The position numbers were made by a program, and so were the translations under genes. Positions 13,541 through 56,332 of a DNA stretch of 64,000 nucleotides are shown one piece after another. How positions within the stretch are numbered: the stretch's first letter is position 1; each line of letters starts with the position of its first letter. Under the pieces are notes generated by a model. It saw nothing but the letters and a program-made list of their open reading frames with translations, was not told the origin of the DNA and made no database searches. The stretch spans positions 62,001-126,000 of the forward strand of contig NZ_AULM01000004.1 of NCBI RefSeq assembly GCF_000422285.1, given 5' to 3'. This DNA is from Desulfatiglans anilini DSM 4660 (GTDB lineage Bacteria > Desulfobacterota > DSM-4660 > Desulfatiglandales > Desulfatiglandaceae).

Positions 13541-13656
13541 ATTCCATCTCCGAAAATGGCTTTTTGGCCGATCCCGGCGTCAATCTGCACATTTGCTTGG
13601 ACGGCGGCCTACAGGTCGCCTCAATTCAAATATTTGATTTCATTGATCTTGGCAAA
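13541..13656 (+). repeat. Palindromic intergenic repeat A, copy 1 (right end replaced)
   Basis: This matches the left and central parts of the element best seen at 52513-52654: the TCCGAAAATGG start, a short T run, the GGCGTCAATCTGCAC segment, the central CCTACAGGTCGCC and the TTTGATTTCATTGAT segment. The usual right terminal repeat is missing; repeat B begins there. It lies upstream of a small leftward gene and about 400 bases upstream of rpsB. Confidence 0.8.
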
Positions 13657-13740
13657 TCGGAACCCGCCCCGGAGGGTGGGTCTGAGCACGCGAAGCGTGT
13701 GAAGAAACCGGGACCCGCCCCGGAGCGGTGGGCCAGGAAG
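13657..13740 (+). repeat. Hairpin-bearing tandem repeat B, copy 1
   Basis: One and a half units of about 51 bases. Each unit has CCCGCCCCGGAGGGTGGG followed by a small hairpin, CACGC-GAA-GCGTG. It follows repeat A directly. The same order and orientation recur at 32695-32975 and, on the other strand, at 35562-35747. Confidence 0.7.
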
Positions 13741-32532: not shown

Positions 32533-32666
32533 GCTTCCGCCCGGAAAGGGACATTTGGCCCGATCTCGCCGTCAACCTGCGCAATTGCCTGTGCGGCGCA
32601 TTCCCCGCACCCCTTCGCGCGAGCACTAGATTCTTTCGAGTTTGCGCAAGAATCCTCCTGTCCGAT
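32533..32666 (+). repeat. Palindromic intergenic repeat A, copy 3 (decayed)
   Basis: Recognisable as CCGGAAAGGGACATTTGGCC, GATCTCGCCGTCAACCTGCG, TTGCCTGTGCGGCGCATTCC, then TTGCGCAAGAATCCTCCTGTCCG. The central palindrome is degraded. It lies just upstream of the mutase gene. Confidence 0.6.
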
Positions 32667-32694
32667 CTGACAACTGTTTCGTGTCCGAGGCCTC

Positions 32695-32832
32695 ACTCCC
32701 GGACGGACACGGGTAAGGTTCGCCCTGCAAAAGGTCTCTTCGGTCGACCTCGTTGTCGATCCTCACGTCTGCCTGTGCGAAGATCTACAGCGCGCCTCCG
32801 CGCAACCGCTCGATTCCCTTGATATCGGCCGG
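32695..32832 (+). repeat. Palindromic intergenic repeat A, copy 4 (decayed, right end replaced)
   Basis: The right half is clear: GCGCCTCCGCGCAACCGCTC, GATTCCCTTGATATCGGCC. The left half is weaker (CACGTCTGCCTGTGCGAAGA). The right terminal repeat is absent and repeat B follows immediately, as at 13541-13740. Confidence 0.6.
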
Positions 32833-32975
32833 ACCGAGATCCGCCCCGAAGGGTGTGGATAAACCAGGACTCACCCCACGGGAGTGGAACTGAACACCGA
32901 GAGAGCACGCAAAAACCAGGCCCCGCCCCGACGGGGTGGACCTAAGCACGCAAAGCGTGTCAAAAACCGACCCTC
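32833..32975 (+). repeat. Hairpin-bearing tandem repeat B, copy 2
   Basis: About three units of roughly 51 bases. The last is the best preserved: CCCCGCCCCGACGGGGTGG, then AGCACGCAAAGCGTGTCAAA with the CACGC/GCGTG hairpin. The first two units are degenerate. Confidence 0.6.
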
Positions 32976-33129
32976 CTTTCCGGATTTAAAGCTGGTTCGT
33001 GCTGCACGGTCATTTCCGCATGGATACCAGTAAACGGATACCAAATTACCCTCAAACACAGGAAAATTAACTTTATTTTGAAGATAAGACGACTGTCAAA
33101 CAAATTTTGACCCCTTTCCTCTTTTCACC

Positions 33130-33158: not shown

Positions 33159-33165
33159 TAGTATC

Positions 33166-33339
33166 CATTCGGAGATGATTTCCCGATAGAATCCGGTTTC
33201 CAATCCAGAAATGAGGATTTTTTGCCAATATCAAGGAAATCAAGCGGTTGCGCGGAGGCGACCTGCAGGTCGCCGCACAAGCAAACGTGCAGATTGACGC
33301 CGAGATTGGCAAAAAAGACCATTTCTGGATTGGAAACCA
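33166..33339 (-). repeat. Palindromic intergenic repeat A, copy 5 (near-complete)
   Basis: Reverse-oriented copy including the flanking extension (GATGATTTCCCGATAGAATC), terminal repeats TTTCCAATCCAGAAATGAGG and ATTTCTGGATTGGAAACC, and a perfect centre GGCGACCTGCAGGTCGCC. The two halves are nearly mirror images, so the transcript could fold into one long hairpin. Confidence 0.85.
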
Positions 33340-35561: not shown

Positions 35562-35640
35562 AGGAACGGCGCGGGGGCCGCTTTCTCCACACCCTGCGGG
35601 CGCTCAGCTCCACCCCTGAGGGACGGCTCATCGTTTCACC
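35562..35640 (-). repeat. Hairpin-bearing repeat B, copy 3
   Basis: On the minus strand: GTCCCTCAGGGGTGGAGCTG, AGCGCCCGCAGGGTGTGGAG, AAAGCGGCCCCCGCG, which aligns with the unit at 13660-13710. On that strand it directly follows the repeat A copy at 35641-35747, the third case of the same A-then-B order. Confidence 0.55.
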
Positions 35641-35747
35641 CGTATCGAGGAAATCAATTCCGCGGCGGCTATCTGTGGGGCCGCCCACGGGCAACCGTGC
35701 AGGCTGACGCCGAGTTCGGCAGCAAAGACCGTTTCCGGATGGAAAAG
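35641..35747 (-). repeat. Palindromic intergenic repeat A, copy 6 (right end replaced)
   Basis: Minus strand: CTTTTCCATCCGGAAACGG, CGGCGTCAGCCTGCACGG, then TTGATTTCCTCGATACGGG. The central palindrome is partly decayed. It runs up to about 20 bases from the end of the carboxyltransferase gene. Confidence 0.7.
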
Positions 35748-43708: not shown

Positions 43709-44522
43709 GGCCTCGCGAACCTCCGTTGTACACCTTTGGCCGCCTGCTCACCGCCGACGATATGAACGTGTCACCCTCCAAGAAGGCCCTTCACGGGATC
43801 TGAACCGTTCCGCCCGCCTGTACGGCAGAGCCAGACGATCCTGCTACCCGGAACGGCTGAATCGTTCGGCTCACCGCCCCTCGATCCCCGTTGCAACTCA
43901 CGAAGCTTCCTGCCACCGAAGGCCTTCTCCGGATGGGATCCGGGTTGTGCCGGGAAATCATCTCCGCATGGACGCAAGCTGAAGAACCAGATTCGACGTG
44001 GCTTTATAGCGCTTTTTGGGCTTATTGACAACGATTTTTCCGGCGCGCGACCCCACGTTCTTCGGCGCGTCCTGCAGCGCGGGAGCAACGTCCAACACGG
44101 GCGCAGGGAAGGGGCGGAAGATCCTGGAAGGGGTGGCATCCGCTTTTCCACAAGAGGACCGTTTAATCCGGCTCCATTTTTGTGGTAGGATTATTGGCGG
44201 CTCGAAAAATCGCCCGCCCCGAAGATCGCTTCCGTTTGGACACCCTGGCGGTGCTCGTTCGACACAGCCTCCAGGCCCCAAGTGCCCTCGAGGCGACCGG
44301 AGCCCTTTGAGGCCGACTTCGCGACTTGGCCGGAAAGCGGGCCGGCGAAGCACCCTGGCAACCGCCCCGACGGGCCAAATCCGCCCGGTCGATGCAAAAC
44401 AGACATTCAGGGGCTGTTATCGAGCCTTGTCCTTGTAGGCGTCTCCGGCCCTGAGAGCCCGGAAGCATTTGCGGATGGCCTGTTCAGCCTGACGAAATCC
44501 TCCGATTGGGACTCAAGCAGCG
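43709..44522. other. Long intergenic region with no supported gene
   Basis: About 810 bases without a convincing gene. Open frames exist on both strands because of high GC content, but their translations are rich in Arg, Pro and Gly and match nothing I recognise. A fragment of repeat A lies at 43928-43984. A decayed gene or an untranslated RNA cannot be excluded. Confidence 0.5.
43928..43984 (+). repeat. Fragment of intergenic repeat A (right end and extension)
   Basis: TCCGGATGGGATCCGGGTTG, then TGCCGGGAAATCATCTCCGC and ATGGACG. This matches the sequence just after the right terminal repeat in the copies at 16836-17004 and 52507-52713. The central part is absent. Confidence 0.6.
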
Positions 44523-46091: not shown

Positions 46092-46167
46092 TGGAGCCAC
46101 CGTGCGGAATCGAACCGCAGACATCCTCATTACGAGTGAGGTGCTCTACCAACTGAGCTACGGTGGC
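46092..46167 (-). tRNA. tRNA-Thr(CGT)
   Basis: A 76-base tRNA on the minus strand. The acceptor stem GCCACCG pairs with CGGTGGC, the D-arm is GCTCAGTTGGTAGAGC, the anticodon stem CCTCA/TGAGG closes loop CTCGTAA (anticodon CGT, reading ACG), and the T-arm is TGCGG-TTCGATT-CCGCA. The CCA end is encoded. It lies alone between two protein genes. Confidence 0.97.
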
Positions 46168-47489: not shown

Positions 47490-47552
47490 GGGCGCTTCAA
47501 ACCCACATGCAGATGGACGCCGGGATGACCAAAAAAGACCATCTGCGGAAGA
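47490..47552 (-). repeat. Fragment of intergenic repeat A
   Basis: On the plus strand ACATGCAGATGGACGCCGGG, ATGACCAAAAAAGACCATCT and GCGGAAG match the end of the full copy located 50 bases further right, in the same orientation. It looks like the remains of a tandem neighbour. Confidence 0.6.
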
Positions 47553-47593
47553 AAAGGCACTTGCCCCTATCCGTTGAATGATCCTTCAGTCCC

Positions 47594-47737
47594 ACCCGGT
47601 CTCGAATCCGGAAATGAGGATTTTTTGCCAATATAAAGAAAACTAAGCGTATGCACGGAGGCGATCTACTGGCCGCCGCTCAAGCAAACATGCAGATGGA
47701 CGCCGGGATTGGCAAAAAAGACCATTTCCGGAAGGGA
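47594..47737 (-). repeat. Palindromic intergenic repeat A, copy 7 (near-complete)
   Basis: Reverse-oriented copy: terminal repeats CGAATCCGGAAATGAGG and GACCATTTCCGGAAGG, T run before GCCAAT mirrored by ATTGGCAAAAAA, and centre GGCGATCTACTGGCCGCC. It ends at the adk stop codon. Confidence 0.8.
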
Positions 47738-52506: not shown

Positions 52507-52713
52507 CTACTTGGTTTCCATCCGGAAATGGCCTTTTTTGCCAATCTCGGCGTCAATCTGCACCTTTGCTTGTGCGGCGACCTACAGGTCGCCTCCGCGC
52601 AAAGGCTTGATTTCCTTGATATTGGCAAAAAATACTCATTTCCGGATTGGAAACTGGGTTGCACCGGAAAATCATCCTCGGATGGACACTACTTGGTTTC
52701 CATCCGGAAATGG
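52507..52713 (+). repeat. Palindromic intergenic repeat A, copy 8: best copy, with start of a second unit
   Basis: The core 52513-52654 has terminal inverted repeats of about 33 bases. The left one includes GGTTTCCATCCGGAAATGG and TTTTTTGCCAAT; the right one includes ATTGGCAAAAAA and CATTTCCGGATTGGAAAC. Its midpoint coincides with the central palindrome GGCGACCTACAGGTCGCC (52576-52593). After an extension (TTGCACCGGAAAATCATCC), the first 25 bases of the element recur at 52689-52713, 182 bases from the first occurrence. Confidence 0.9.
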
Positions 52714-56078: not shown

Positions 56079-56262
56079 CGTTCATCCGGAAATGATTTCC
56101 CGGTAGGACCCGGCTTCTTCAGACCCCTCGTCTGCTCAGCCCCCGCCCGGTCCGGCCAATATCAAGGAAATCGAGCGTTTGCGCGGGGACGACTGCAAAT
56201 CGCCGCGCAAGCAGCCGTACAGATTGACACCGTGACAGGCCAAAAAGACCCTTTCCTGATGG
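56079..56262 (-). repeat. Palindromic intergenic repeat A, copy 9 (decayed)
   Basis: On the plus strand: TTCATCCGGAAATGATTTCC, CGGTAGGACCCGGCTTC, GGCCAATATCAAGGAAATCG, CGGGGACGACTGCAAATCGC, AGATTGACACCGTGACAGGC and AAAAAGACCCTTTCCTGATG. The left terminal region is partly replaced. It lies between the lipoprotein gene and the ileS promoter. Confidence 0.7.
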
Positions 56263-56332
56263 ACATCAGATTGCCGACCGCTACGACGGATGTCAACCTC
56301 TTCAAGGTTCGACCTCCAAACCGAATCTGGAT

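Follow-up and report, generated by a model that had tools for sequence, protein, structure and literature searches.

Introduction

MITEs as such are well known. Prokaryotic MITEs are short, gene-less and mostly intergenic; they occur in high copy number, carry inverted terminal repeats, leave target duplications and form stem-loops. The Microcystis MITE (PMC11448079) is 187 nt long and has ISL3-like ends, and a 235-bp MITE, Chunjie, is known from Geobacter uraniireducens (reviewed in PMC10969869). Among insertion sequences, an ISDol1 subgroup has been described (digIS paper). In Geobacter metallireducens, 24 short RNA elements with the central palindrome GRCGTAGCGCTGCTACGCC have been predicted (Aklujkar, 2009; PMC2700814, Additional file 4), and the part of that paper on these elements names G. 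sulfurreducens, G. uraniireducens and Desulfotalea psychrophila.

Here we analyzed a repeat family in 64,000 nucleotides of Desulfatiglans anilini DSM 4660 (contig NZ_AULM01000004.1, positions 62,001 to 126,000; hereafter, the window). The family shares the traits of prokaryotic MITEs listed above and, like the Microcystis MITE, has its ends and its duplication length in common with a full insertion sequence (IS). It differs from these MITEs in having an ISNCY partner, a 6-bp duplication (TARYTA) and an interior common to much of the phylum; Chunjie was compared by description alone. The termini and the 6-bp duplication are those of ISNCY insertion sequences, and the transposase of the partner scores over the NCBIfam ISNCY cut-off, whereas the MITE itself retains the last ~15–17 bp and no gene. 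REP/BIME repeats are likewise intergenic high-copy palindromes, but the window's element is larger, has target duplications and a DDE-type partner, and shows no link to RAYT. As for the Geobacter elements, an identical apex palindrome, GGCGTAGCGCTGCTACGCC, is present in G122, G337, G408 and other genomes with related cores, which are also intergenic and multi-copy, whereas the apex of the window's copies is compensated (GGCGACC..GGTCGCC); this likeness is judged on the palindrome in the legend alone. The Geobacter elements are presented there as RNA elements, with no mobility described in that part of the source (PMC2700814), whereas the window's copies bear ISNCY ends.

Among the papers covered by a literature search, none described an ISNCY MITE of this type or such a MITE in Desulfobacterota. 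Three points are new: that the partner is an ISNCY element, that this family follows a 6-bp TARYTA rule, and that a high-copy MITE is linked to a covarying hairpin found across the phylum.

Results

A palindromic core within a 176-bp unit

The original prediction, made from the sequence alone, described an unrecognised family of 142-bp symmetric palindromic elements. The palindrome is real, but it is only the core of the mobile unit, which is 176 bp long (52514–52689). The features at this locus are as follows.

52508–52513, no strand: left 6-bp target-site duplication, TACTTG
52514–52689, plus strand: full MITE copy of 176 bp, with core (52514–52654) and tail (52655–52689)
52568–52600, plus strand: conserved apex, CTTGTGC-GGCGACC-TACA-GGTCGCC-TCCGCG
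52690–52695, no strand: right 6-bp target-site duplication, TACTTG, a perfect match to the left one
52696–52713, plus strand: truncated left terminal repeat (GTTTCCATCCGGAAATGG) of a further copy

This copy, which is also found in the sister genome (G001), begins with GTTTCCATCC, continues as an imperfect palindromic core and a tail of ~35 bp, and closes with the second terminal repeat, its last bases being GGATGGACAC. The MITE as a family is 176 bp long with GTNTCCATCCGGAAATG-type ends and no transposase gene, and its core folds at -71 kcal/mol (z about -10). Subfamilies have GC-rich DNA inserted between the core and the tail (the copies at 13541, 56079 and 32726), and truncated-dimer composites also belong to the family.

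All the copies and fragments that had been predicted were found in the sequence, in both orientations.

13541–13710, plus strand: copy in which a GC-rich insert separates core and tail, the tail being clearer in the sister genome
16837–17002, plus strand: nearly full copy, 3 bp past the stop codon of ribosome recycling factor
32535–32707, plus strand: old full-length copy
32726–33024, plus strand: copy with insert, core at 32726–32830 and tail at 32958–33024
33164–33336, minus strand: full copy
35634–35745, minus strand: core copy, diverged
43923–43972, plus strand: tail-only fragment
47493–47554, minus strand: left-end fragment
47576–47736, minus strand: nearly full copy directly past the stop codon of adenylate kinase
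56081–56263, minus strand: copy with insert, missing in the sister genome, with TCAGATT on both flanks and once in the empty site

A profile whose members came largely from other families in the phylum independently re-found nine of these with E-values from 1.6e-4 to 1e-27. Their intergenic position was borne out, since the gaps adjoin Pfam-supported genes; the sole ORF overlap of the 32535 copy is with the over-long start of a mutase ORF. No Rfam family matched the element over its gathering score. The family was also rightly called unrecognised in that no named family matches exactly, although the 2009 paper, in its part on the Geobacter elements, mentions a relative of the core (PMC2700814). 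The sole Rfam match in the window is a tRNA gene (46095–46167, minus strand).

The family moves as DNA, and its copies decay

A genome-wide search showed that copies occur across the whole genome, beyond the window. In 464 kb sampled regardless of the element there were 51 clusters, or one per ~9 kb, which extrapolates to ~500 clusters in the 4.67-Mb genome; the family makes up ~2% of the sampled DNA. Exact matches to the apex pattern numbered 59 in the window's genome versus 0 for the reversed pattern, which, together with the z-score of the core fold, indicates that the copies are not due to chance. In the sister species G001, which has a complete, syntenic, ~95% identical genome of the same genus, exact terminal repeats numbered 215 versus 0 in the control.

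Flank statistics for 71 full copies revealed matching in excess at one main offset, spanning six positions, that is, a 6-bp target duplication with the palindromic consensus TARYTA. Most sites are common to the window's genome (G000) and G001; several hold a copy in just one of the two species, the other having an empty site. The site of the 56081 copy is among these, filled in the window's genome. The filled and empty sites and the 6-bp duplication in 71 copies establish that the family moves as DNA.

Thirteen old orthologous copies were 87.2% identical between the two species, compared with 89.5% for the adjacent 60 bp and 94.3% farther out, where the DNA is mostly coding. Individual MITE copies are therefore not preserved and diverge at about the rate of the flanking DNA. 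Relative to tandem genes, the MITE copies showed no clear orientation bias (14 versus 8), by gene-context statistics that come from a simple ORF caller and are rough.

An ISNCY insertion sequence with the same ends in the sister species

Of 27 transposase loci taken from the two genomes, three, all in G001, are flanked by the ends of the MITE. These were reached by a transposase-family search; exact terminal-repeat pairs in G001 gave no autonomous element among the matches listed. The elements are 1693–1698 bp long; one end is GTTTCCATCCGGAAA and the opposite end GTTTCYATCCGGAAATAG, and the ends match those of the MITE along about 15 bp. Perfect TAAATA duplications flank one copy (L191), and the other two (L188 and L192) are without matching ones. 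With the NCBIfam ISNCY model NF033593 (cut-off 325), the 455-aa transposase gives 438.9 bits; it also matches PF01609 and DUF772. We presume that the element may belong to the ISDol1 subgroup of ISNCY.

A transposase with 66% identity, with matching ends and TAATTA duplications, was found in another genus (L222 in G016). Further ISNCY relatives, from Desulfobacterales, Syntrophobacterales and Gammaproteobacteria, show GTGYCCATCC-type ends and TARYTA-type 6-bp duplications; a single-protein scan of genome contigs detected none of them, whereas an alignment scan did. By eye only, the tail of the MITE partly resembles the right end of the IS in other genera.

That no transposase gene lies in the window, as originally stated, holds for the partner, which was found in the sister species. 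In the window's own draft genome no intact partner was detected, only a ~67-nt fragment, and the MITE family is therefore probably stranded in this species. The IS and the MITE share the terminal ~15–17 bp only, and the sequences lend no apparent support to an origin of the MITE by internal deletion. From the shared ends and duplications, it is likely that the G001 transposase moves the MITE.

On contig 60 of G000 (L172:210–3080), two directly oriented ISNCY-like ends enclose three genes that by eye resemble those for an enoyl-CoA hydratase, a 3-hydroxyacyl-CoA dehydrogenase and an iron-sulphur protein. This arrangement is possibly a composite element or a remnant.

The hairpin core is widespread in the phylum

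The core has a near-fixed apex, CTTGTGC-GGCG..CGCC-TCCGCG. DNA searches detected it in 27 of 61 relatives and in 47 of 395 genomes of the phylum, and a covariance model based on 34 copies found it in 101 of the 395 (65 of 246 genera; E<=1e-4). The apex-only pattern (CTTGTGCGGCG N6–18 CGCCTCCGCG) occurred in 25 of the 395, with up to 132 matches per genome and one control hit overall.

The arms of the hairpin covary: 19 of 56 pairs were double-changed in the inter-genus alignment and 15 of 20 in the phylum alignment, where double-change cells numbered 79 versus 19 in shuffles. Only 6 of the departures were G-U, compared with the 79 Watson-Crick double changes, and the G-U and A-C counts pointed to neither strand clearly as the RNA. 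The scarcity of G-U intermediates suggests that pairing is kept at the DNA level, or that palindromes are corrected by template switching, more than selection on RNA.

The core occurs in two settings. Elsewhere in the phylum, MITE copies with ISNCY-type ends are flanked by perfect 6-bp duplications (TATCTA at L268, TCGCTA at L269 and L270, GAAATA at L273, TATTTA at L288). The cores of G337, G122, G156, G085 and G356 are without ISNCY ends and start directly past a stop codon, and their outer arms vary between copies while staying complementary. At 20 post-stop loci, both flanking genes were on the same strand in 17 cases and on the opposite strand in 3; another gene filter gave 13 versus 3. 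In two species of one genus, orthologous cores hold their position with the apex loop swapped (TACTTCCAGTA for TAGCGCTGCTA). The orthologous post-stop hairpins at L318 and L324 (G337/G122) have almost identical surroundings and differ in an ~11-nt apex loop (TACTTCCAGTA or TACCTCCAGTA versus TAGCGCTGCTA), which looks like copy-to-copy homogenisation limited to the apex.

The same apex was also seen on long hairpins with seemingly unrelated arms (L332, L333 and L335 in G408; L291 and L292; L293, a tandem triplet of apex-capped hairpins; L328), and two viral contigs (L315 and L316) each contain one exact apex match.

DruA/DUF4338 genes near the repeats

In one relative, a DruA gene has a divergent core copy on one side and another, different palindrome on the other (L081:4180–5760). 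In G001 and G000, multi-copy DruA/DUF4338 genes were found inside larger insertion sequences as apparent accessory genes (L128–L140), and one DruA-bearing IS type has IS66-like ends (GTAAGCGATCACAGG).

Discussion

We are highly confident that the family is a MITE with an ISNCY-family partner, which has the same ends and duplication, and that its interior is a hairpin core also found without ISNCY ends. The suggestion of a MITE in the original prediction is thus supported by the 6-bp duplications, the empty sites in the sister species and the autonomous IS with the same ends and duplication. In the mechanism that we propose, the transposase would bind the terminal repeat, GTNTCCATCCGGAAAT, at either end of the 176-bp element and join the element into palindromic TARYTA targets, generating the 6-bp duplication; most such targets occur at stop codons or within AT-rich gaps. 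In the window's species, where the draft assembly shows the partner reduced to a fragment, old copies are probably decaying. The interior is a MITE form of the hairpin core with its near-fixed apex, not random filler.

The original prediction also offered REP/BIME-type repeats, which a RAYT (a Y1 tyrosine transposase) would move, and that reading is not supported. It fits high-copy intergenic palindromes, and Y1 genes occur in the genome of the window and in the majority of related ones; yet the element leaves a 6-bp duplication, the complete genome G337 combines 22 exact apex matches with zero Y1 matches, and among 30 Y1 loci no RAYT gene flanked by the repeat was found. The core was near a single one of the 30, in a core-dense genome. 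We therefore regard mobilisation by RAYT as very improbable. Still less credence is due to a DruA/DUF4338 protein as the mobilising enzyme. The L081 gene does directly adjoin a divergent copy, but among the other fetched DruA loci just one fragment (L140) is near a copy, and the candidate was ruled out by the multi-copy genes examined in G001, which sit within other insertion sequences.

That the repeats are primarily functional structured RNAs or regulatory hairpins, with mobility secondary, has more in its favor, namely the stable fold, the strong covariation over many families, the related copies elsewhere that lie directly past stop codons, in most cases sharing the strand of the gene upstream, and the orthologous copies kept in position within a genus. 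In the window's genus, however, MITE copies decay like their flanks or faster and are not clearly biased in orientation, and covariation with so few G-U pairs is unlike that of a typical RNA. We thus consider this explanation unlikely for the family as a whole; the hairpin-RNA proposal of the original prediction is not borne out for the MITE copies, while the phylum-wide core is kept as a candidate. Tentatively, and with less than even confidence, we propose that this core may be a phylum-wide functional module, a long hairpin with a conserved apex that in some lineages directly follows stop codons and that is probably recognised by a protein and under DNA-level selection or correction. ISNCY ends would have made it mobile in several families, amplifying it to hundreds of copies within the genus of the window.

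These results name a likely motor for a repeat family that fills ~2% of the sampled genome, and tie the family to hairpins that a 2009 paper raised as possible RNAs and that are absent from Rfam. The scarce G-U intermediates point to maintenance of palindromes at the DNA level, which is testable. In some genomes the core is a mobile, neutrally decaying MITE, and in others a post-stop hairpin conserved in position. Its two forms therefore provide a test case for distinguishing transposons that were kept for a job from functional hairpins that were captured by transposons.
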